Source: Roseofilum capinflatum BLCC-M114
Lineage (GTDB): Bacteria > Cyanobacteriota > Cyanobacteriia > Cyanobacteriales > Desertifilaceae
Reading direction: 5' to 3'
Length of the DNA: 42,168 bases
Assembly (NCBI RefSeq): GCF_030068505.1
Contig: NZ_JAQOSO010000036.1
Span: forward strand, 1 to 42,168
Of this stretch, positions 26,492-37,707 are shown in pieces (the stretch's first letter is position 1; every line of letters starts with the position of its first letter). The notes beneath the pieces were generated by a model. It did no database searches. It was not told the DNA's origin and worked only from the letters and a program-made list of their open reading frames with translations. The translations under genes and the position numbers were made by a program.

Positions 26492-27445
26492 TTAAAACTC
26501 TTGGCGAAACCATGCTAGAGTTCCTGATAAGCCATCTGATAGCGATCGCTCCAAAGAAAAGCCAGTGCCGAGCAGTTTTTGATTGCAGCCAATCCAGTGG
26601 ATGGGATCGCCGCTTCTGCGATCGCCCGTAAAGACAATGCGATCGGGATGGCGATCGGCTAAAGTAACGATGAGGGTGGCTAGGTCGCGGATCGTGATTC
26701 CTTCAGCAGAGCAAACATTGAAGATTGGCGCATTGATTTTGGCTTCGTTCGCCAGCCATATCAAAGCGCGAGCGGCATCACTGACGTGAACGAAATCCCG
26801 CATTTCGCAACCATCGCCAAACAGCTTTATCGCCTCGTCAGAAAGCAGCGTTTTACACAAAATATCAAATATCACTTGTTTCTGTTGCCTCGGCCCGTAG
26901 AGAGAAAAAATCCGGGCGATCGCGCTTTGAAAGCCGTAGCACTGGGAAAAGACGCGAATGTACTCCTCAGCAGCCAACTTGCTCGCGCCGTAAGGAGAAA
27001 TCGGTCGAGTCGCTGTCTGTTCGTCAATGGGAACTTGTCGGGGTTCCCCATAGACTGCTGCGGTTGAAGCATAGACCAAGCGACCGGAAAACCCACTGCT
27101 GCGGAGGGCTTCGAGCAGGTTAAAAGTTGCTACCAAATTTTGATTAAAATCCAGAGCCGGAGTTTTCACGGAATCGGCAAAATAAACGAATCCTGCCAGG
27201 TGGAAAACAGCATCAAAGTGCTGGTGAGCCAAAAGATCCAACAAATTTGGGCTAGTCAGATCCAGTTGGATAAAGTCCTGGGGCAACATCAAGGGTTCGG
27301 CTGCTGGCTCTTTTGCTTCCGGTGGATTTCTATCCATACCCGTCACATATCCGCCATGCTTTCTCAGTTGCTGGCAGACTACCCGTCCTAAAAAACCGCT
27401 TACTCCGGTTACGAGAATGTGCTTACCTTGAATTGCGATCGCCAT
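26492..27445 (-). CDS. NAD-dependent epimerase/dehydratase (UDP-glucose 4-epimerase-like)
   Basis: This 317-residue extended short-chain dehydrogenase acts on nucleotide sugars. The Rossmann motif GVSGFLG is at residues 14-20, the catalytic YGASK follows SPYG near residue 150, and ARIFSLYGPRQQKQVIFDIL and GDGCEMRDFVHVSDAARAL (segments RIFSLYGPRQ and MRDFVHVSD) are typical for GalE-like and related enzymes. The exact sugar cannot be read from sequence. It may supply a sugar donor for surface polysaccharide or for the nearby SPINDLY-type glycosyltransferase; that link is only positional. Confidence 0.85.
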   Translation of the reverse strand: MAIAIQGKHILVTGVSGFLGRVVCQQLRKHGGYVTGMDRNPPEAKEPAAEPLMLPQDFIQLDLTSPNLLDLLAHQHFDAVFHLAGFVYFADSVKTPALDFNQNLVATFNLLEALRSSGFSGRLVYASTAAVYGEPRQVPIDEQTATRPISPYGASKLAAEEYIRVFSQCYGFQSAIARIFSLYGPRQQKQVIFDILCKTLLSDEAIKLFGDGCEMRDFVHVSDAARALIWLANEAKINAPIFNVCSAEGITIRDLATLIVTLADRHPDRIVFTGDRRSGDPIHWIGCNQKLLGTGFSLERSLSDGLSGTLAWFRQEF

Positions 27446-27715: not shown

Positions 27716-27885
27716 AATGAAGCAATCCCAACAATCTCGGAATCTTGGCGATTGCTTCCCTGCGGTCGCAATGACAAGTGTTTAACCGGACTTGATATGA
27801 AATGAAGCAATCCCAACAATCCCGGTAATCTTGGCGATTGCTTCCCTGCGGTCGCAATGACAACTATTTAACCGGACATGATATC
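27716..27885. repeat. Two tandem 85-bp units of a GTCATTGCGA-type repeat
   Basis: Units at 27716-27800 and 27801-27885 are nearly identical. Each reads AATGAAGCAATCCCAACAAT..., then CTTGGCGATTGCTTCCCTGC, GGTCGCAATGACAA and TTTAACCGGAC(T/A)TGATAT. The GAAGCAATC and GATTGCTTC arms make a hairpin in each unit. The second unit overlaps the 3' end of the glycosyltransferase gene and supplies its stop codon. Confidence 0.88.
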
Positions 27886-29526
27886 ACCCCTGACAGCATG
27901 TTCTAGAAAGTGTTCTAAGCCCTCAATGCAAGCCCTATCTGCATAAATCTTATGCTTGTTTTCCGCCATTCGCGCCCTCACCTGCTCTCGGAAAGGGGCA
28001 TCTTTGCCCAGACGAATCGCGATCTCGACATAATCTTCCGGGGAGCTGGCAATAGTTTCCCTAACTCCCATGTGTTGCAGAATGCCACTGCTCACGCGCC
28101 CGCGCAAAAACTCCCCTGGCAGGGTGACAATGGGCAAATTGTAAGCAATTCCTTCTAGGGTAGTTGTAGTGCCAGCTACACCGATGCTGTCCAGGAAAAT
28201 ATCGGCGATATCGTTCAGGCGATGGTAACTGGCATGGGATAGGGCTGGCTGCATGACGACGTATTGTTGCATGTCCAGACCTTCAAGCGCAAACGCATTC
28301 TGCAATCGTTTGGTAAAGATTTTCGTCAGCGCTTCTGACGTTTTGTGCTTCAGAAAGATAAACTGACAGTCGCCCACTGCTTGGGCAATGCGCGGGTAGA
28401 ACCAATCGTATTGTGGTAAATATTTAAACAGGGACTGGGTACAGAAGTAGGCTACGGCTGAAGAACGCAAGCCAAAGTCCTGGCGTTGCTCCGATGAAAG
28501 GGTTTCCTCTAGCGGGGTGTAGTACATGGAGAGATTGGGCAGTCGAACCAATTTTTCAGTGTACTGTTCTTCTGCCTGCTCTGGTTCGAGGAGCGCTGCG
28601 CTTAAACAATAATCAATCGTGGGCAAACCACTGGTAACATAGGTCGCCCAAGTGGTGACTTGAACCGGAGCCAGTCGCAAGGCTGAAAGCTGAATGCCCT
28701 TGGTAGTCATGCTGACTTCGGGATAGAGCAGGATATGGGACTCGTCGGCTTGGATGAGCTGTCCCCATTCCTCAATGGTATGAGAGCCGGTGACAAATTT
28801 GGCTAAACAATTCCGGGCAAATTCGGTTTCTTCATCCTCGGTTTTGTTGAGCGCGTAGCCAATGAGGTGAAATTTCTGGCGATCGAGTTGAGCGATCCAG
28901 CCTTTGAGAATATCTTTCCAGATCGAATGGCGATAAAAATGTCCCGAAACTATGCCGACTCGGATGGCTTCGTTTGGTTTGGGGGCAACGCTTGGCAGAG
29001 ACTGCGCCCACTGGGGATAGCGATCGGCCATGATCCGGGTGATTATCTGCCCGTAAAGGCCCATTAAGTCTAGATCGTCCTGGCCCTGGTAAGCGAGATA
29101 AAAGGGCGCAATGCGGCCAACTGCGTATGCTAGAGCGGCGATCGCCTCTGGTTGAGCTTGGTCGATTTTCTCGCCCAAGGCGATCAACTGTTGCTGGTAT
29201 TGCTGGCGACTGTGCCATACTTCCTCTGGCTGCCGATAGACAATGGGCAATTGCAGCATACAGCGATAAAAGTCCGGCTGTAGGGATTCTGGGTCAATTG
29301 CTGCTGCTTTGTGGCAACAATCCCATGCTTCTGGTAATTGACCGATCTGGTGATAGGCTTGTGCTAAAGCCAGATGGGTTTTGATACAGTTGGGTTCCAC
29401 CTCCAGAGACCGCCGATACCAAGCAATGGCTAGGGCGCTGAGTTTGGGGTCTGGTGGATGCCGAAGAAAGGAAGCCGCTATGCGGTTGTATTCTGCTGCT
29501 TGGGCTGGTGGGTTGGGGTTAAGCAA
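27868..29526 (-). CDS. SPINDLY/O-GlcNAc transferase-like glycosyltransferase (GT41 type) with TPR repeats
   Basis: The protein has 552 residues. The first 110 residues hold TPR-like helices (ALAIAWYRRSLEVEPNCIKTHLALAQAYHQIGQLPEAWDCCHKAAAIDPES, seen as repeating A-x-Y/L-x2-A-L...P patterns). From about residue 195 a GT-B catalytic region follows: IRVGIVSGHFYRHSIWKDIL, LRLAPVQVTTWATYVTSGLPTIDYCLS and the hallmark DIFLDSIG, GTTTTLEGIAYNLPIVTLPG and RVSSGILQHMGV. Such enzymes move GlcNAc, fucose or another sugar to Ser/Thr of proteins. The last residues and stop come from a repeat. It lies on the same strand as the lasso cluster, separated by a toxin-antitoxin pair, so a tailoring role is possible but unproven. 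Confidence 0.85.
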   Translation of the reverse strand: MLNPNPPAQAAEYNRIAASFLRHPPDPKLSALAIAWYRRSLEVEPNCIKTHLALAQAYHQIGQLPEAWDCCHKAAAIDPESLQPDFYRCMLQLPIVYRQPEEVWHSRQQYQQQLIALGEKIDQAQPEAIAALAYAVGRIAPFYLAYQGQDDLDLMGLYGQIITRIMADRYPQWAQSLPSVAPKPNEAIRVGIVSGHFYRHSIWKDILKGWIAQLDRQKFHLIGYALNKTEDEETEFARNCLAKFVTGSHTIEEWGQLIQADESHILLYPEVSMTTKGIQLSALRLAPVQVTTWATYVTSGLPTIDYCLSAALLEPEQAEEQYTEKLVRLPNLSMYYTPLEETLSSEQRQDFGLRSSAVAYFCTQSLFKYLPQYDWFYPRIAQAVGDCQFIFLKHKTSEALTKIFTKRLQNAFALEGLDMQQYVVMQPALSHASYHRLNDIADIFLDSIGVAGTTTTLEGIAYNLPIVTLPGEFLRGRVSSGILQHMGVRETIASSPEDYVEIAIRLGKDAPFREQVRARMAENKHKIYADRACIEGLEHFLEHAVRGDIMSG

Positions 29527-29544: not shown

Positions 29545-29934
29545 CTATGGCAACAGTATTTCAATCTCCCTCAACACATCCTCCAAAATTGGAGCATTTG
29601 CAGAAACGATATTATCCTCGCTACCCTCATGCTTGTGATGGGGAAAGTTAGCTAAATTAAGCTTGTGATGATGTTCGGCATTATCATAGCGAAAAATCAG
29701 ATGTTTTGAAGCATCCATATACTGGTACGAATACATATCGCGCTCTATGCCGTATTCAATATCTACATACTCGCGCCAGTGGAGAATCGAGCCATCCTTA
29801 AAAAGTATATTGCCACGAACAAAACCCTCATACTCAGTCCGCTTTTGGGAAAAGAACTCGAACGACTGCACTCCGGGATATCCTTCAATTGTGACGCGAA
29901 TTTGCTGAAAATAATTCTCAATCGACAAACTCAA
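29545..29934 (-). CDS. tumE: TumE/DUF6516-family toxin
   Basis: This 129-residue protein matches the DUF6516/TumE family: YFQQIRVTIEGYPGVQSFEF, GFVRGNILFKDGSILHWREYVD and YSYQYMDASKHLIFRYDNAEHH, with a Leu/Glu C-terminal helix. TumE is the toxin part of TumE-TumA type modules. The start is a TTG inside the end of the upstream gene; the overlap is 17 bases, which implies coupled translation. The partner, encoded upstream on the same strand, does not look like an HTH antitoxin. Confidence 0.8.
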   Translation of the reverse strand: MSLSIENYFQQIRVTIEGYPGVQSFEFFSQKRTEYEGFVRGNILFKDGSILHWREYVDIEYGIERDMYSYQYMDASKHLIFRYDNAEHHHKLNLANFPHHKHEGSEDNIVSANAPILEDVLREIEILLP

Positions 29935-30250
29935 TACCTTTCAATTGCTCTGCCTTTGCTCGCAAGCGCTTTAGCATCCGAGATTCGCCAATCCACTCAT
30001 CAAAGTCAAAGGTATGCTGTAGCTCGTCGTTCTTGAAACGACGCAGAAACTCCTCAGTAGATTGCTGATACTTGGCCTCAAATTCCTGCAAGCGGTCTTC
30101 AGTTTGCCGAATTCCATCTGAGAGAGAACGCAATCGTTCTGCCATGGTTCTCTCTATGAATATCTTGAGCGCTTCTGGATCGCTACATCTAATCTTGAGT
30201 TCTGCCTTATCGCGTTTTTGTGCAACTACTCTATCGCTTGTTTCTAGCAT
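29918..30250 (-). CDS. Probable antitoxin partner of TumE (coiled-coil protein)
   Basis: The 110-residue protein is from ATG 30250, which has AAGG eight bases upstream; a GTG at 30265 is the alternative. It is highly charged and mostly helical, with a central coiled-coil-like stretch (RLRSLSDGIRQTEDRLQEFEAKYQQSTEEFLRRF, heptads of hydrophobic residues) and a C-terminal FDFDEWIGESRMLKRL segment. No DNA-binding HTH is visible. It precedes and overlaps tumE as an antitoxin gene would. The family is not one I can name; the role comes from gene order. Confidence 0.65.
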   Translation of the reverse strand: MLETSDRVVAQKRDKAELKIRCSDPEALKIFIERTMAERLRSLSDGIRQTEDRLQEFEAKYQQSTEEFLRRFKNDELQHTFDFDEWIGESRMLKRLRAKAEQLKGIEFVD

Positions 30251-30318
30251 CTGATTTACCTTCACTCCGCTCGAAAAACAATGGCTCTGATCGCAATTGG
30301 GGCCTAGAAACAGGGTCT

Positions 30319-30351
30319 AGAAACCCGGTTTCTTGAAGAAACCGGGTTTCT
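30319..30351. repeat. 33-bp hairpin (family 2), copy 2
   Basis: AGAAACCCGGTTTCT, a three-base centre, then AGAAACCGGGTTTCT: two palindromic arms that can fold into a strong hairpin. It lies 38 bases downstream of the lasso precursor stop codon on the minus strand and could end or protect the cluster mRNA. Confidence 0.88.
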
Positions 30352-30388: not shown

Positions 30389-30535
30389 TTAAGAAGGGAC
30401 GGGTTGACATGCACCACTTTCAGCATTGGGTTGGAACGGACCGCTTTCTGTTTCTCGTACCGCAATTTTATTCAGCTCGGGGGCCAGCCAGATTTTTTTT
30501 GCCTGTTGCGGCTGGTTGTTTGGATCTGCATTCAT
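30389..30535 (-). CDS. Lasso peptide precursor, paeninodin type (newly recognised small gene)
   Basis: This 48-codon gene starts at ATG 30533-30535, with AAGGAG nine bases upstream, 40 bases after the cyclase gene. The leader has W16, P19, L21, I24, V26 and T29, the WxxPxLxxLxVxxT pattern of paeninodin-like precursors. By the rule that Thr is at position -2, cleavage after Glu30 gives the 18-residue core SGPFQPNAESGACQPVPS. The core can close a nine-residue ring between Ser1 and Glu9. A Gly1-Glu8 ring is the alternative if cleavage is one residue later. The tail has one Cys and ends in Ser, the residue modified by kinases of this cluster type. All neighbouring genes on this strand encode matching enzymes. 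The product has not been seen; cleavage site and ring are inferred. Confidence 0.85.
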   Translation of the reverse strand: MNADPNNQPQQAKKIWLAPELNKIAVRETESGPFQPNAESGACQPVPS

Positions 30536-30575: not shown

Positions 30576-32477
30576 TTAAATTCTAAAGCAATTGACGCAG
30601 GCTAGGGTAATCAACAGGACTTCTACATCCCGTTTCATTTCTTTGGTTTGGGATATCACCTCCTCTAACTTGTTTAAGTCTACATATTTAGCTGCTGGAA
30701 GATCGCCCTCCTTCCGGCAAAGCCGATCGCTCAAAACAGGTAGAGCTGCCGGCCATACGCGATCGAGGACGGCAAAAGCAGCAGCTTCTCGTTTAGAGCG
30801 GTTCCATTGTACTGCGGCTGGCAATATACCTTCAACGGCTCTACGCATCAAGGATCGTCCGCACCCCTGCTGTACGAACTGCTCTGGGGGCGTGCCAAGA
30901 CAAAACTCCAGGATGCGTCGGTCGAGTAGGGGGTAAGAATAGAGCAGCCCCTGGCGATCGCCATTGACTGCCCAGGCTTCAATTCGTTTGGTCAAATGCC
31001 CGTTATTGAGCCAACGCCACTGATTTTCTTGAACTCCCGGACTCTCCTGCAAGGAGGGCCCACGCATTGACAAAACGGCATCTTCATGCTGCTGGGCAAA
31101 GCTGGGATTGATGCAGGTTATGGGGTAGCAACTGCTTCTACTGTTCCGGCCGTACCGCCAAGACCAGATCGCTTCGGGAATCAGGGGCAGTAAGACTTTC
31201 TTGTAGGCGACACGAGCATCTAATCTGAGAGCGTATAATAGGTTAGCGCCCTCCTGTTGGGACAAGCAACGAATTTCTCGATGCAGTTTCCTCCAACGTC
31301 CCCGCAAAAATAGCTCTGACCAAAAGCCCCAACCATGACCCGTAATCGCTTCGTCTCCACCCCAGCCCGAAAGCATGATGCGAACGTCATCTTGGGCGGC
31401 TTGCTTCTGGACGAGTTGTTCGCGAAACATCATCTCTGCTGGGTCGCGGCTGAAGTCTCGCATATAAGTTCTGACCACATCCTCCACCTTTAAGTCGATA
31501 TATTGGCATTCAATGCCTTCTTGCTGACAAACGGCCTGGATTAACCGGCGCTCGTCATCGGGGCATTCACCTGTAGCTGGGGGCGGCGGAGACCAGGAAT
31601 AGGCGGTGGGGGTTTTACCTTGCTGGCGGAGCAATTGGGCGGCGATCGCCGTTACACTAGAGGAATCTAACCCACCACTGAGGTGGCAGCCTACCGGGAA
31701 AGGGGTGCGAATGCGGCACTGCACCGCCTCCAAAAGTAACTCGCGCAACTGCTCTGCATAAGCTTCATCCGAGGGAAGACGCACTTCTCTTACATTATTG
31801 AGAGACCAGTATTGAGTCAGTTGGCTACTCTTTGCCGTCACCGTCAATTGATGAGCTGGCGGCAATTTGACAATATCGGCCAAAAACGTCTGGCGTTTTT
31901 CGGGAAAATAGGTGTCTTCCTGCAAATAAGCGGCTAGTAAAGGTTCGTTGGGGCGGTGCGGAACCTCCGAGCGAGCCAGCACCCCCTCAATATCGGAAGC
32001 AAAGATAAAGCTGCGATCGTTTTCGTAGTAATAAAATGGCTTAAAGCCCATATGGTCTCGACCGCAAAAAAGGATCTGCTCTTTTCGATCCCAGAGGGCA
32101 AAAGCAAATTCGCCGATGAGCCGACTTACACAGTCTTGCCCCCATTTTTCGTAAGCCAATAAAATTAGAATACTGTCGGGCATAGTTCGACCCTCGGCAG
32201 GTGGCACGTTTAGCGCTGCCAATAGTTCCTGCCGATTATCGATGCGGGCATCGGCGGTCATCACCCAATTGGGATTCTGCCGATGGGCAATAGGCAATTT
32301 TTCGTGGAGAGATTCGGGAGTGGAGTGTAACATCAAATGACCCAACCCGACGGAATTTTCACACCAAGAACCTTGACCATCTTTACCCCAAGCTGCCATA
32401 GCTCTTCGCATCGGCTCGATGGTCTCTGGGGTGACTGCTGTACCGTCTTTATAAAAAATGCCGTAGATTCCGCTCAA
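30576..32477 (-). CDS. Lasso peptide cyclase (asparagine synthetase B-like, C protein)
   Basis: The 633-residue protein activates the side-chain carboxylate of the precursor with ATP (adenylation) and closes the macrolactam. It begins (M)SGIYGIFYKDG from a TTG start, preceded by GGGAGA. The residue after Met is Ser instead of the Cys nucleophile of true glutamine-dependent asparagine synthetases, as expected for a cyclase that needs no ammonia. The ATP-pyrophosphatase motif SGGLDSSS lies near residue 270, and LSGWGGDEAITGHG near 373. The precursor gene follows directly. The upstream gap of 159 bases to the B2 gene contains a repeat fragment. Confidence 0.92.
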   Translation of the reverse strand: MSGIYGIFYKDGTAVTPETIEPMRRAMAAWGKDGQGSWCENSVGLGHLMLHSTPESLHEKLPIAHRQNPNWVMTADARIDNRQELLAALNVPPAEGRTMPDSILILLAYEKWGQDCVSRLIGEFAFALWDRKEQILFCGRDHMGFKPFYYYENDRSFIFASDIEGVLARSEVPHRPNEPLLAAYLQEDTYFPEKRQTFLADIVKLPPAHQLTVTAKSSQLTQYWSLNNVREVRLPSDEAYAEQLRELLLEAVQCRIRTPFPVGCHLSGGLDSSSVTAIAAQLLRQQGKTPTAYSWSPPPPATGECPDDERRLIQAVCQQEGIECQYIDLKVEDVVRTYMRDFSRDPAEMMFREQLVQKQAAQDDVRIMLSGWGGDEAITGHGWGFWSELFLRGRWRKLHREIRCLSQQEGANLLYALRLDARVAYKKVLLPLIPEAIWSWRYGRNSRSSCYPITCINPSFAQQHEDAVLSMRGPSLQESPGVQENQWRWLNNGHLTKRIEAWAVNGDRQGLLYSYPLLDRRILEFCLGTPPEQFVQQGCGRSLMRRAVEGILPAAVQWNRSKREAAAFAVLDRVWPAALPVLSDRLCRKEGDLPAAKYVDLNKLEEVISQTKEMKRDVEVLLITLACVNCFRI

Positions 32478-32636: not shown

Positions 32637-33098
32637 CTAGCTACCGAAAAAAGAAATAACCTTAAATTGAGATTCAATTGCGCCACCAGTGATAATTTCT
32701 TGGCCGACTCTGAGCCACGCATGGGCTTCGAGTTTATCGGCATTTTTTTTCAGACCCAGATAGAGGGTGCTGGCAATCTTGCGCCGCCGCAACATGATCT
32801 TAGCGGCGATCGCCTGTGCCAAACAGTTGCTGCGCCAGGGGGTATAGCGGCTGCTGGTGGCGATCGCCCAAGCGATCTGCTCAACTACTGCCTGTTCTGC
32901 TGGCTGAATGCCGTCTTCTGAGGTTTCTTGGTTGAGACCCCCCAAATAGGGCGCGATCCACCGAAAAGGAAAAAGCAGCACGCAGCCTCGCGCTAAACCG
33001 AGCCAGAGAAACGCTTCTAGGAAAGCCATTTTTCTGTGGCTCGGTTGTTGCCAAAATAGAGCGGCTTTATTCTGCAATAATGCGAACCAGTTTTTCAT
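32637..33098 (-). CDS. Lasso peptide leader protease B2 (transglutaminase-like)
   Basis: This is a 153-residue cysteine protease (ATG 33098; ATG 33128 would add ten residues). The family catalytic Cys is in WRSNCLAQAIAAKIMLRRR and the His in AHAWLRVG. The third catalytic residue, normally Asp, lies within the C-terminal half but is not certain. The N-terminal part (FLEAFLWLGLARGCVLLFPFRWIAPYLG, segments AFLWLGLARG and LLFPFRW) is the usual B2 helical region. It cuts the leader from the precursor, guided by B1. The start overlaps the B1 gene, so the two are coupled. Confidence 0.92.
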   Translation of the reverse strand: MKNWFALLQNKAALFWQQPSHRKMAFLEAFLWLGLARGCVLLFPFRWIAPYLGGLNQETSEDGIQPAEQAVVEQIAWAIATSSRYTPWRSNCLAQAIAAKIMLRRRKIASTLYLGLKKNADKLEAHAWLRVGQEIITGGAIESQFKVISFFGS

Positions 33099-33363
33099 CG
33101 ATGATCTTCTGGATAAAAGGCAACACATCTTGCTGACAGGTTCGAGCGTCTACGTCAAACTCCTCTTGCAGCAGGCCGCAGAGTTCGGCCACACTCAAAG
33201 GTTGCTCCAGTAGCTCCCAGATGCGCGTGCCGACTGGGTTCGTACCGTAGTAGCTATCGCTCTCTATGTTCATCATCACCAGTTCGTCCTCCAGATTGGA
33301 GGCCAAAATATCTGGGTTGCGAACGAGTTTTTGAGTCAGAGTAATGGTTTGATTCGATCCCAT
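33067..33363 (-). CDS. Lasso peptide B1 / PqqD-like RiPP recognition protein
   Basis: The 98-residue protein has the PqqD-like RiPP recognition fold: ELVMMNIESDSYYGTNPVGTRIWELLEQPLSVAELCGLLQEEFDVD (segments YYGTNPVGTRIWELL and VAELCGLLQEEFDVD). It binds the leader of the precursor and presents it to B2. ATG 33363 is chosen for its AAGGTG ribosome-binding site; a TTG at 33387 would extend it into the preceding kinase gene. Its 3' end overlaps the B2 start. Confidence 0.92.
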   Translation of the reverse strand: MGSNQTITLTQKLVRNPDILASNLEDELVMMNIESDSYYGTNPVGTRIWELLEQPLSVAELCGLLQEEFDVDARTCQQDVLPFIQKIIDEKLVRIIAE

Positions 33364-33379
33364 AAAAAACACCTTATTT

Positions 33380-34351
33380 TTATTCAAACTCCAGAGAAAC
33401 CCGGTTTCTTTGAGAAACCGGGTTTCTAGCGTTTATAGCCATATCTTCTTCCAGACATTCGATCACTTGGCCGAGGGAAAAATAGCTTTGTGGTCGAACC
33501 ACCCGTTTTACCTTCCTAGAGCCGAGGACTTGAGAAATTTGTTGGAAAACGTTTTCTCTCACGCCCAGACCTTTAATAAATTCTACTCGGAATACATTCT
33601 TCATCAATGCCTCAAACTGTTCCACTTTGGTTAAAGAGGTGACTGAAACCGTGGACACATCAGCAGGGTTGAGCCAATAGATACGGTACAATTTGCTGGG
33701 ATGGCTGGCCAGCAACTCTGGCAAATATTTCGTATATTTGTCTTCTTTGTGCCACACCCGTTGCATGGTCTGGCGATCGTAGTCGAGCTGTTGTAAGGTA
33801 TCGTTCCACAAGCGAATTTGAGCCAAAGCAGGACAAACTTGCGGCCCTTGGTCTGGAGAACAGTCGATCGCACACAAGTCATCGGCTAACATCTGATAAC
33901 CGGTTTTTAGGAATCCAGCCGCTAAGGTTGATTTGCCTGCACCCGAACGACCCAGAAATATAATAGCACCGCGATCGCTCTCAACAGCGCTGGCATGGAG
34001 GATTAAACGACCGCGTTGGTGCAGCAAGGAGCCGAAACCTTGGGAGAAAAGATAGAGACGTATGAGTTCTTCAGGACAACCGGCAGCAGGATCGATGATA
34101 ATCTCTTTGCCATCAAGCACCAAATATTTGGCAATCTCATCCACTTTTAGCAGATAAGCTCCTGGTTTGATTTGACTGAACCAGTCCTCATAGACCGGTT
34201 CTATGAGGCGATCGCTGACAGGGCCAACAGAAATGCGGACATCAAAATCGGAGTCATTGCCAGAGTAGGGGCGCAATTCAGGACAGACTAGCTCAGAGGC
34301 AATATTCAAGCCACAAACCGTATATCGATAGAGAGTGTTCGATTCTTTCAT
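33380..34351 (-). CDS. HPr-kinase-like lasso peptide kinase
   Basis: This 323-residue protein has an HPr kinase-type ATPase core: the HASAVE motif near residue 122, the P-loop GRSGAGKST near 133-141 and LADDLCAID near 157. There is no HPr/PTS context. In paeninodin-type clusters such kinases phosphorylate the C-terminal Ser of the precursor, and the candidate precursor here does end in Ser. The final residues RNPVSQRNRVSLEFE are encoded by a 33-bp hairpin repeat and its flank, so the natural C-terminus may have been extended by insertion. It is the first gene of the minus-strand lasso operon. Confidence 0.88.
   Translation of the reverse strand: MKESNTLYRYTVCGLNIASELVCPELRPYSGNDSDFDVRISVGPVSDRLIEPVYEDWFSQIKPGAYLLKVDEIAKYLVLDGKEIIIDPAAGCPEELIRLYLFSQGFGSLLHQRGRLILHASAVESDRGAIIFLGRSGAGKSTLAAGFLKTGYQMLADDLCAIDCSPDQGPQVCPALAQIRLWNDTLQQLDYDRQTMQRVWHKEDKYTKYLPELLASHPSKLYRIYWLNPADVSTVSVTSLTKVEQFEALMKNVFRVEFIKGLGVRENVFQQISQVLGSRKVKRVVRPQSYFSLGQVIECLEEDMAINARNPVSQRNRVSLEFE
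33395..33427. repeat. 33-bp hairpin (family 2), copy 3, inside the kinase 3' end
   Basis: AGAAACCCGGTTTCTTTGAGAAACCGGGTTTCT (quoted as its arms AGAAACCCGGTTTCT and AGAAACCGGGTTTCT) lies in frame before the kinase stop codon and encodes RNPVSQRNRVS on the minus strand. Confidence 0.88.
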
Positions 34352-34681: not shown

Positions 34682-36475
34682 TTGAAAGATAAACTGCAAC
34701 TGCTCAAAAATCTGAAAAGAGCGATCGGTCTAGTGTGGCAGAGTACACCATTTTGGACATCTTGTACGATTATTCTCGTGTTTTTACAAGGTGTATTACC
34801 CTTAGCCTCCCTGTATTTAATGAAGTTACTCATCGATACAGTGACTGCGGGGATTGGCAATGGCATGTCGGCCTTTTATGATGTCCTGAAGATCGTTCTT
34901 CTGGTGGGAATAACGGCACTCATCACCAATCTTTTACGGTCTTTATCGGGATATGCTACCCAAGCTCAATCCCAGATTGTTACCGATTTTGTCAATGATA
35001 TTTTACACAGTAAATCCGTTGAACTTGACTTAGAATATTACGAAAACGCTAATTTCTATAATTCCCTGCACCGCGCTCAACAAGAAGCCAGCTATCGACC
35101 GCAAAACTTACTGAATAATTTGCTACAGTTGGCTCAAAATGCGATTTCTCTGGTGGCGATCGCCGGATTACTGCTTTCCCTCCATTGGTCAATTAGTATC
35201 GTCTTATTAGCCGCAGCACTTCCAGTCTTATTCGTTCGCTTACAGCAGAGCAAAATACTCTATCGACAGCAAAAAACTTGGACAGCAAAAGAACGTATGG
35301 CCTGGTACTTTCACTGGATGCTGACCATCGAAAGTTATGCCAAGGAAGTCCGGCTATTCGATCTCGGAGCTTTGTTCCGAAGACGCTACCATAACCTACG
35401 ACAGGACATTCGTCAAGAAAAGTTAGCTCTGGCTCGAAAACGGGCGATCGCCGATTTTTTAACTCAACTCAGTGGAATTCTCGCTCTTTTTGCCGTATTT
35501 AGCCTTATTGCCTATCAAACCATTCAAGGACAGATCACCCTAGGAAGTTTGGTGATGTATTATCAAGGTTTTCAACGGGGACAGGCATTTTTAGGCCAAC
35601 TTCTGTCTAGTTTTGCCGGTTTATACGAAAATAGTTTATTTCTTTCCCATCTTTACGAATTCCTAGACTTAAAACCCACGATTGCTAATCCGATCTATCC
35701 CCAATGGGTTCCCCAACCCATCAAACAGAGCTTGAAATTTGAAAATGTTTCTTTTCAATATCCCCATAGCAGTCGTCCCTTACTCCAAAACATTAATCTC
35801 ACCATTCCCGCAGGAGAAACAGTCGCCTTAGTCGGAGAAAATGGAGCCGGAAAAACCACCCTAATTAAATTATTATGTCGCCTCTACGATCCGACTTACG
35901 GACGAATTACCATTGATGGCATTGACTTACGGGAATTCAATGTTGTAGATTGGCGACGACAAATTAGTGTGGTATTTCAAGATTATGTCCGCTACAGTTT
36001 AACCGTTCGAGAAAATATTGGTTTGGGAAATATTGCCCACATGGACAATCATCCTGATATTATCGAAGCCGCCCAAAAATCAGGAGCAGAGAAGGCAATT
36101 TCTAGACTCCCTAAAGGCTATGATACCATGTTAGGAACCCAATTTGAGGAAGGAGAAGAATTGAGTATTGGGGAATGGCAAAAAGTAGCGATCGCCCGCG
36201 CCTTTTTGCGTCATGCTCAACTGCTGATTCTCGACGAACCCACCAGCGCACTCGATCCTGAAGCAGAATATGAAGTGTTTGAAAAATTCCGTCAACTGAT
36301 TGAAGGAAAAACGGCTATTCTAATCAGCCATCGCTTGTCTACCGTTAAGATGGTCGATCGCATCTTTGTTTTAGCTAATGGTAGAATTGTAGAAACAGGT
36401 TGCCACGAAGAGTTGTTACATCTCGGTGGAACTTATGCCCGTTTATTTTCTATTCAATCCAAGTATTATCAATAA
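34682..36475 (+). CDS. ABC exporter with fused membrane and ATPase domains (probable lasso peptide exporter)
   Basis: The 597-residue protein starts at a TTG (a start further upstream is possible). It has an N-terminal domain of about six membrane helices (residues 20-310) and a C-terminal ATPase domain with Walker A GENGAGKTT near 395, the signature LSIGEWQKVAIARA near 490 (Ile in place of the second Gly) and Walker B LLILDEPTSALD near 515, then the ISHRLSTV switch His. It is divergent from the lasso operon, and its stop is two bases from the convergent nucleotidyltransferase gene. Export of, and immunity to, the lasso peptide is inferred from context. Confidence 0.88.
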   Translation: MKDKLQLLKNLKRAIGLVWQSTPFWTSCTIILVFLQGVLPLASLYLMKLLIDTVTAGIGNGMSAFYDVLKIVLLVGITALITNLLRSLSGYATQAQSQIVTDFVNDILHSKSVELDLEYYENANFYNSLHRAQQEASYRPQNLLNNLLQLAQNAISLVAIAGLLLSLHWSISIVLLAAALPVLFVRLQQSKILYRQQKTWTAKERMAWYFHWMLTIESYAKEVRLFDLGALFRRRYHNLRQDIRQEKLALARKRAIADFLTQLSGILALFAVFSLIAYQTIQGQITLGSLVMYYQGFQRGQAFLGQLLSSFAGLYENSLFLSHLYEFLDLKPTIANPIYPQWVPQPIKQSLKFENVSFQYPHSSRPLLQNINLTIPAGETVALVGENGAGKTTLIKLLCRLYDPTYGRITIDGIDLREFNVVDWRRQISVVFQDYVRYSLTVRENIGLGNIAHMDNHPDIIEAAQKSGAEKAISRLPKGYDTMLGTQFEEGEELSIGEWQKVAIARAFLRHAQLLILDEPTSALDPEAEYEVFEKFRQLIEGKTAILISHRLSTVKMVDRIFVLANGRIVETGCHEELLHLGGTYARLFSIQSKYYQ

Positions 36476-36477
36476 AG

Positions 36478-37707
36478 TTAACCTTTGAATGAATTCCAGA
36501 GAGATGATATTTTTTTGGGGTCAATCTTATAGGTTTTGATTAACCTAACTATCCGCAGGGGATAATAGAGAAAGAACAAGAACCTGGGCAGAGCAAGAGC
36601 TTCTCGATCGCTTGCATTTACACGAAAAGTAATCTTCAAAACATATTGCAGCTTACTCCATAACGTGATTTCTCTTTTCTCCCACAAACTGACAATATAG
36701 AAGATATAGCTATATTCCATGTTTTTATGATACATATATGCTTCATGTTGTCTGGCAAGTTTCACCACTTCTGGAAACTGCTTCAGCTTTTCTGAAAATC
36801 TTTCAGGAAGGGAAACTTGTAGATAGGTTTGGGCGATCGCAATTCCTAGCAAAAATACGCGATCGTTCTCATCCGTTCCACATTGAGCGATGACTTTCTG
36901 CCAATTTGCTTCTGGATAAGTCTGAATTAAGGCTCCAAAATCACAGATTCTTTTTAATGAATTCCAACTGTCTTTTGCTCCCTGTAGATAACCAAGAGCG
37001 AGACAATTTTCTGGAGAGAAGGTGGCGACTTCTTTACCCGAAAGAGATAAAGTTTGCAAGTTATCGAAAAACGATTCCTTCTCGATCTGTAGATAAAAGT
37101 TTTGTGGCGTTAACTTATAATGCAGGTCGATATTGACTCGGCCATCGGGTAACACCATCTGAGCTTCTCCAATACTCTCTTCAAGTCCACCAAAGTGTTT
37201 GTCATAATACCCTTGCTCGATCAGTACATCTTTAGCTTTAGAATAATCTTCAGGACGCACTAAAACATCCAAATCAGAAAACTCTCGAAGTCCCATATTG
37301 CCATAGGCTAAGTGTGCCCAGATTGGCCCCTTAAAAGGAATAGCTTGGATCTTATGTTCTGCAAATAATTTAAGCGTTTGTAACAATTTATTGGTCAAAA
37401 ATAAATTATACGTCATCCGTTTTTGAGCTTCGTTTTCTATTCTCTCAAATACAGATAAAGGCACGCCCTGTGACTGATTTTGTTTTAGGGTTCGATAGAG
37501 CAGCATAAATACATTCTGATTCACTGCATTTTGAAGCAGAATATCCCAATCTAAATCAGTTCTTAGCAAATCTTGAACGTCAGAAGCCTTGGCTGAATTG
37601 AGTTGAGAACGAATACAGCACAACAGGAATTGATTTTCAGATGAATCAATTTTAGTGGGAGTGGATATTTGCAAGTCTAAGGATGGTTGGTCTATTTTTT
37701 TAATCAT
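36478..37707 (-). CDS. Nucleotidyltransferase-like protein (NTP_transf_5) of the lasso cluster
   Basis: The 409-residue protein has FKGPIWAHLAYGNMGLREFSDLDVLVRPEDY (the GxxxR-x2-SDxDxLV type motif) and NIDLHYKLT, typical of the PF14907 nucleotidyltransferase family seen near RiPP and capsule genes. As I recall the pseudomycoidin pathway of Bacillus, a protein of this kind acts after the kinase and attaches hexose to the phosphorylated C-terminal Ser. A similar step here is an inference. Its DNA is AT-richer than the flanking ktrB gene. It is convergent with the ABC exporter. Confidence 0.82.
   Translation of the reverse strand: MIKKIDQPSLDLQISTPTKIDSSENQFLLCCIRSQLNSAKASDVQDLLRTDLDWDILLQNAVNQNVFMLLYRTLKQNQSQGVPLSVFERIENEAQKRMTYNLFLTNKLLQTLKLFAEHKIQAIPFKGPIWAHLAYGNMGLREFSDLDVLVRPEDYSKAKDVLIEQGYYDKHFGGLEESIGEAQMVLPDGRVNIDLHYKLTPQNFYLQIEKESFFDNLQTLSLSGKEVATFSPENCLALGYLQGAKDSWNSLKRICDFGALIQTYPEANWQKVIAQCGTDENDRVFLLGIAIAQTYLQVSLPERFSEKLKQFPEVVKLARQHEAYMYHKNMEYSYIFYIVSLWEKREITLWSKLQYVLKITFRVNASDREALALPRFLFFLYYPLRIVRLIKTYKIDPKKISSLWNSFKG

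Follow-up and report, generated by a model that had tools for sequence, protein, structure and literature searches.

The window, by which we mean the whole 42,168-nt stretch of DNA analyzed, contains genes for a kinase (K), a RiPP recognition element (B1), a leader peptidase (B2), and a lasso cyclase (C), followed by a short open reading frame (A), a TumA/TumE-like pair, a glycosyltransferase, and a sugar epimerase/dehydratase. Genes for an exporter (D) and an NTP_transf_5 protein (N) lie beyond K (Table 1). Other frames in the window are presumably rbcL, rbcX, and rbcS. The preliminary description of this DNA did not mention the kinase, the NTP_transf_5 protein, the transporter, the glycosyltransferase, or the epimerase.

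Table 1. Features of the predicted lasso-peptide locus and its surroundings in the window.
Feature	Position	Strand	Matches and remarks
NAD-dependent sugar epimerase/dehydratase, candidate sugar-nucleotide supply	26492..27445	-	PF01370 1.5e-55
TPR + GT41 glycosyltransferase (SPINDLY/OGT-like), candidate tailoring enzyme	27868..29526	-	PF13844 5e-30; PDB 7y4i 1.3e-28
TumA/TumE-like pair between A and glycosyltransferase	29545-30265	-	TumE PF20126; TumA match weak
Hairpin and palindromic repeat, predicted	30319..30351	-	Downstream of A; second copy 33395-33427
A, predicted lasso precursor	30389..30535	-	Leader 1-30, core 31-48 SGPFQPNAESGACQPVPS; predicted ring Ser31-Glu39
C, lasso cyclase (asparagine-synthetase type)	30576..32477	-	SGGLDS, TTG start; NF033535, PF00733
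B2, transglutaminase-like leader peptidase	32637..33128	-	NF033537, PF13471
B1, PqqD-like RiPP recognition element (RRE)	33067..33387	-	PF05402, NF033536; 98 aa from internal ATG
K, HPr-kinase-like lasso kinase	33380..34351	-	HprK_rel_A, Hpr_kinase_C; BsfK-type residues
D, ABC exporter	34682..36475	+	PF00005, PF00664; beside alternative cassette in sister species
N, NTP_transf_5 protein	36478..37707	-	PF14907 7.9e-47

A is a real frame of 48 codons from ATG to TAA, with the product MNADPNNQPQQAKKIWLAPELNKIAVRETESGPFQPNAESGACQPVPS, and its coordinates are exactly those given in the preliminary description. The other details of its setting were also borne out: the ATG (30535) lies 40 bases from the end of the cyclase frame (30576), and an AAGGAG site is found 9 nt ahead of it. 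The claim that the gene falls below usual gene-calling limits is doubtful, since its 147 nt exceed common minima (90 nt for Prodigal). A 106-nt stretch downstream of A holds the predicted hairpin (folding z -4.6), which may end transcription. The second copy of the repeat lies at the 3' end of K, and the kinase frame runs into the palindrome. Promoter-like sites (8 in the window; shuffle mean 4.3, sd 2.3) and terminator-like sites (7; shuffle mean 5.6, sd 2.7) were not used as evidence.

The leader residues that had been singled out (W16, P19, L21, I24, V26, and T29) are all at the positions described, which are -15, -12, -10, -7, -5, and -2 if the cut falls after Glu30. The glutamate said to lie nine residues past this cut is Glu39, or core residue 9. 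The published RRE-binding leader motif is [Y/W]xxPx[L/V/I/A/F/Y] (PMC13381572), and lasso leaders are described as having Thr, rarely Ile or Val, at -2 (PMC10368454). A satisfies both, the latter assuming the cut after Glu30. The pattern W..P.[LIVMF]..[LIVMF].[VLIM]..T is found in one of the 361 open reading frames of 30-90 aa in the window, compared with two of 98,918 when the window was shuffled 200 times with dinucleotides preserved; none of the shuffled frames combined it with Asp or Glu at core position 7-9. Around B2-family matches at 36 further loci from the phylum, none of the 4,146 frames had the pattern. No NCBIfam or Pfam model matched A.

Six genomes of the genus were compared, including that of the window (G000). 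A cyclase with at least 85% identity is present in three of them, namely G000, G213 (taken to be Roseofilum acuticapitatum BLCC-M154), and G386, and A is found downstream of C in all three. A search for relatives in other cyanobacteria had been suggested in the preliminary description, and each of the two other genomes with this cyclase holds an ortholog behind it. The leaders of these orthologs differ from that of the window at three (R. acuticapitatum) and two (G386) of the 30 positions, with the W, P, L, I, V, and T of the motif kept. The cores are SGPFQPNAESGACQPVPS in the window, SGPLLPNPESGACSPPPVLPS in R. acuticapitatum, where the precursor has three additional in-frame codons, and GGPFQPNAESGACQPVPS in G386. 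Gly32, Pro33, Pro36, Asn37, Glu39, Ser40, Cys43, and the C-terminal Ser are invariant in the three orthologs, and the remaining core residues differ. Between G000 and G386, the codon differences are seven synonymous vs. three non-synonymous (binomial 0.0017); neither of the other two pairs reaches significance (0.17 and 0.06). In G386, the gap between C and A is about 280 bases, about 240 more than in the window (L090 5130-5406). This insert bears short inverted ends (GACTGTTTA/TAAACAGCC), and G386 has no AAGGAG ahead of A.

In a sample of 386 genomes from the phylum, which does not include G386, matches to the precursor at E <= 0.01 were found in four genomes: those of the window and R. acuticapitatum, and two with weak matches (G153 and G245; E 0.006-0.009) that were taken as chance. 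The weak match at L004 is antisense to a frame of more than 1,000 aa, presumably polyketide-synthase-like, and the letters at L005 are nearly identical there. Apart from the match to A itself, no match to a cluster gene below E 0.05 was found within about 1.5 kb at these two loci. In the genome of the window, the search with A found no second copy, and the next match (C74, E 0.33) was dropped as it sits within a 600-aa frame. A could in principle be a chance frame, with the true precursor elsewhere in the genome, as its shortness and a further lasso-like gene set in the same genome (C114; see below) would allow. Given the conserved orthologs, the codon differences, the chance control, and the single copy, this explanation is scarcely credible.

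The enzyme set B1, B2, and C, which had been claimed to adjoin the precursor, was matched to the expected families, with B2 well over the model cut-off (NF033537, 103.2 bits; cut-off 33) and C and B1 just under theirs (NF033535 lass_lactam_cya, 522.1 bits, cut-off 525; NF033536, 79.3 bits, cut-off 80). B1 scores 68.7 bits against PF05402 (cut-off 23.4). Cys102 and His136 of B2 are candidate catalytic residues. The nearest solved structures of B1 are PDB 9x90_B (7.5e-15) and TbiB1 (5v1u, 2.6e-11). The former was deposited as a lasso PqqD-family chaperone and, judging from its residue numbering, probably corresponds to PbaB1 (PMC13381572), although this PDB code does not occur in the main text of that paper. 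K matches HprK_rel_A (2e-11) and Hpr_kinase_C (2.3e-4) and lies below every HprK family cut-off. It has the residues His119-Gly134-Gly137-Gly139-Lys140-Ser141-Asp157-Asp158 with the spacing found in BsfK, for which the eight lasso-kinase residues have been published (PMC10368454). The R. acuticapitatum K is broken in two by a frameshift (L006 6001-6949), and the glycosyltransferase frame of this strain carries an inserted stretch (L006 10399-12243), suggesting that the cluster of this strain is perhaps decaying or misassembled. A second B2-family match in the genome of the window (G000:C11:4309-4683; L064) has no B1, C, or K match in the stretch fetched around it.

With a kinase, an NTP transferase, and a transporter, the locus has components common to clusters of the LPP family of Bacilli (PMC13381572), and the product of A may be considered an RRE-guided phosphorylated peptide that stays linear; LPP clusters typically also encode a SipW-like peptidase. 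However, the locus encodes B2 and a lasso cyclase, with 80% and 85% identity, respectively, between the window and G386, which makes a linear product very improbable. Taken together, the orthologs with a conserved leader and variable core and the adjacent B1, B2, and C support the lasso reading of the preliminary description, and it is very probable from the sequence that A encodes a lasso-peptide precursor, whatever the ring size.

For this precursor, a pathway can be proposed from what was read in the sequence, i.e., the gene and its orthologs, the enzyme families, the leader motif, the kinase residues, and the synteny; its cut site, ring size, phosphorylation, glycosylation, and export are predictions, as would be any biological activity. 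B1 would bind the leader (residues 1-30) through W16, P19, and L21, and K would phosphorylate the C-terminal Ser48. B2 would cleave after Glu30, leaving Thr29 at -2, and C would activate the Glu39 side chain and couple it to the Ser31 amino group, so that a tail of nine residues threads a ring of nine. D would export the product, and N, as well as the GT41 enzyme with the epimerase, may add sugar. The computed [M+H]+ of the dehydrated core (18.011 Da below linear) is 1754.78 for the cut after Glu30; phosphate would add 79.966. With free Cys, the calculated monoisotopic values are 1834.75 for the phosphorylated form, 1996.80 with phosphate plus hexose, 1916.83 with only hexose, and 1957.86 with HexNAc; for the unmodified cores of G386 and R. 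acuticapitatum they are 1724.77 and 1998.00. A variant of the same lasso reading places the cut after Ser31 and closes a ring of eight residues between Gly32 and Glu39 (1667.75). Lasso cores usually begin with Gly, and Gly32 is invariant in the three orthologs, in which residue 31 is Ser, Ser, and Gly. This later cut would move Thr29 to -3, which conflicts with the Thr(-2) rule, and is unlikely. As for the site of phosphorylation, the paeninodin kinase targets the C-terminal Ser, which is described as extremely conserved in kinase-bearing clusters (PMC9266682). However, BsfK phosphorylates Ser3 of the core instead (PMC10368454), and a kinase by itself therefore does not settle the site.

We compared 40 loci (L054-L093), consisting of 39 of the 40 B2-family places in the phylum (that of the window excluded) and G386. 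In 24 of these loci, 45 frames have a long register, Y..P.L...G.V...T, with Tyr at -17 and a leader two residues longer than that of A; the first motif residue is Tyr in 40 and Trp in five. The short register was found in three loci: G386, R. acuticapitatum, and L066, where the frame is hydrophobic and does not look like a precursor. All three window-type cores end in Ser, whereas only four of the 45 other precursor-like frames do so; many of these 45 also adjoin a K homolog. Like the window, the other cyanobacterial loci have B1, B2, C, K, D, and often N, and the precursor follows C in many of them. However, their order is often B1-B2-C-A(n)-K-D, and their cyclases are 24-39% identical to C of the window.

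The preliminary description had called the leader paeninodin-type. This is apt for the WxxPx[V/L] leader, whose Trp sits at -15 like that of PbaA, for Thr at -2, and for the HPr-like kinase and the C-terminal Ser, all of which are shared with paeninodin-like systems. In addition, the paeninodin ring closes at core residue 9, as predicted for A, and the construct name padeCAB1B2D suggests that A directly follows C, as in the window. The Trp of the motif is described as nearly invariant in paeninodin-like precursors, and paeninodins as restricted to Bacillota, with RREs in which a conserved Gly takes the place of the Pro-fixing Asn of other RREs (PMC13381572). The host of the window, in contrast, is a cyanobacterium, the core is different, and the gene order is K-B1-B2-C-A, with A last. 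Moreover, B1 of the window has Asn50 at the place of the paeninodin Gly and Asp87 at that of PbaB1 Gln79, according to a presumed mapping of the PbaB1 numbers onto 9x90_B. These residues are also found in B1 of R. acuticapitatum and G386; the B1 of Candidatus Thiomargarita nelsonii, treated below, has Gly/Asp. In PbaB1, changing G42 to Asn and Q79 to Asp, the residue that binds Tyr, widened binding; the place of Gln79 is described as not strongly conserved among paeninodin RREs (PMC13381572). Since the leader is paeninodin-like but the RRE is not, and no NCBIfam or Pfam precursor model matched, we did not file the cluster as paeninodin. A short-register WxxP leader paired with an RRE in which the paeninodin Gly is missing is a new combination.

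The genes behind A may extend the pathway. The best solved match of the TPR-GT41 glycosyltransferase is SPINDLY. This gene is present at 80% identity or more in the same three of the six genus genomes as the cyclase, and the best matches in the others are 28-31%; at E <= 1e-40, the epimerase is found in those three and, in fragmentary form, in G389. A comparable arrangement occurs in Candidatus Thiomargarita nelsonii, which we take to be a proteobacterium. Its K (61%, residues 95-304 only), B1 (54%), B2 (61%), and C (67%) match those of the window. Next come an unrelated 203-aa frame, the glycosyltransferase (65%), and the epimerase (66%), so that the cluster genes stand in the order seen in the window; the epimerase match reaches the end of the fetched stretch. 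The precursor search found no A in either Thiomargarita or UBA2566, and no leader-like frame lies behind the Thiomargarita cyclase. Within the Thiomargarita class, the window-type cyclase was found in one of 369 genomes (E <= 1e-100), and within the Thiomargarita order in one of 42 (E <= 1e-80), in both cases Thiomargarita itself; in the window's order, it was found in three of 378 genomes (E <= 1e-150), all from the genus of the window.

TPR-GT41 enzymes are common in the window's order (163 of 378 genomes; E <= 1e-90), so the presence of GT41 says little by itself. Rather, the evidence for linkage comes from the synteny and from the drop in identity, from at least 65% within the cluster to 46% for the best match in the order outside the genus. 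The short flanks of 17 glycosyltransferase loci (L113-L129) hold no homolog of other cluster genes. The synteny in Roseofilum and Thiomargarita suggests that the glycosyltransferase and the epimerase are likely members of the cluster, as candidate tailoring enzymes. Between A and the glycosyltransferase, R. acuticapitatum retains only the TumA-like antitoxin, and in G386 the glycosyltransferase is next after A with no TumA/TumE match in between, suggesting that the pair is perhaps a later insertion. In UBA2566 (L008 5889-6931), which looks like the same assembly as G389, K residues 1-86 are joined to epimerase residues 88-316. This junction could reflect a single deletion of the block, or else a join made in assembly.

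To our knowledge, no lasso pathway with a dedicated SPINDLY/OGT-like (GT41) enzyme has been described, and this candidate enzyme is the most novel aspect of the system. In one review, lasso glycosylation is treated for pseudomycoidin from Bacillus pseudomycoides, in which the C-terminal Ser is phosphorylated and PsmN adds hexoses to the phosphorylated Ser (PMC9266682). The pseudomycoidin cluster has a kinase and a nucleotidyltransferase homolog; the window has K and the NTP_transf_5 protein N, which is perhaps a PsmN-like tailoring enzyme. Unlike pseudomycoidin, the window also has a separate GT41 enzyme and an epimerase, and N lies beyond D and is possibly common to another cassette.

N is present at 63% identity or more in five of the six genus genomes, including some without a window-type cyclase. 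In R. acuticapitatum, a cyclase-like gene (34%), a kinase-like gene, and a long-register precursor lie between K and D-N (L109 9131-12448). Such a cassette also adjoins D-N in G388 and G389, which have either no window-type cluster or a remnant of one; G000 and G386 lack the cassette at this locus, and there K adjoins D-N. The cassette occupies the same slot at L109, L110, and L111. Its position beside D and N in these sister genomes weakens the view that the two belong to the window cluster alone. D and N may serve either system, and their roles in the window cluster are predictions. A small frame elsewhere at L109 (3741-4127) has a C-terminal half that is presumably Nif11-type leader-like, and we take the frames beside it to be P450- and methyltransferase-like.

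A cyclase-like gene (37%) together with an NTP_transf_5-like gene (30%) is found elsewhere in the genome of the window (G000:C114:32734-40042). This pair is present in all six genus genomes and is accompanied by B1, K, and D homologs in G387, so a further genus-wide Roseofilum lasso-type cluster is possible.

A lasso cluster in Roseofilum is itself a known kind of system. In MAGs of this genus from Siderastrea siderea, a cluster with a 98-aa RRE, a 135-aa B2, and a 633-aa cyclase has been reported, and other Roseofilum strains compared in that study lacked it (PMC9967302). The window shares the sizes of the RRE and the cyclase and the ABC-transporter flanks, but no ATG, GTG, or TTG in its B2 frame gives 135 aa. 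The word "precursor" does not occur in the main text of that paper. The earlier label "overlooked" may be apt in so far as the main text names no precursor for the published cluster. The core and leader strings were not found in a literature search, which is weak evidence given that most subscription journals lie outside it. What is new here is the precursor, the synteny of the GT41 enzyme and epimerase in Roseofilum and Thiomargarita, and the alternative cassette in the slot. The fullest interpretation is a transferable K-B1-B2-C-A-GT-epimerase block that would produce a lasso peptide both phosphorylated and GT41-glycosylated, with an exporter and nucleotidyltransferase common to the alternative cassette. 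We offer this interpretation tentatively, as a possibility that falls somewhat short of probable.

The isolated lasso peptides named in one review come from other phyla (PMC8498205), and the class has been called underexplored in cyanobacteria (PMC9967302). Because the WxxP leader occurs with an Asn/Asp-type RRE, the pair lends itself to testing the leader-discrimination rules of 2026. Likewise, the GT41 enzyme linked to the cluster is a candidate, open to experiment, for the enzymatic glycosylation of a lasso peptide. With a precursor named, the product of a kind of cluster flagged in black-band-disease Roseofilum becomes searchable by mass.
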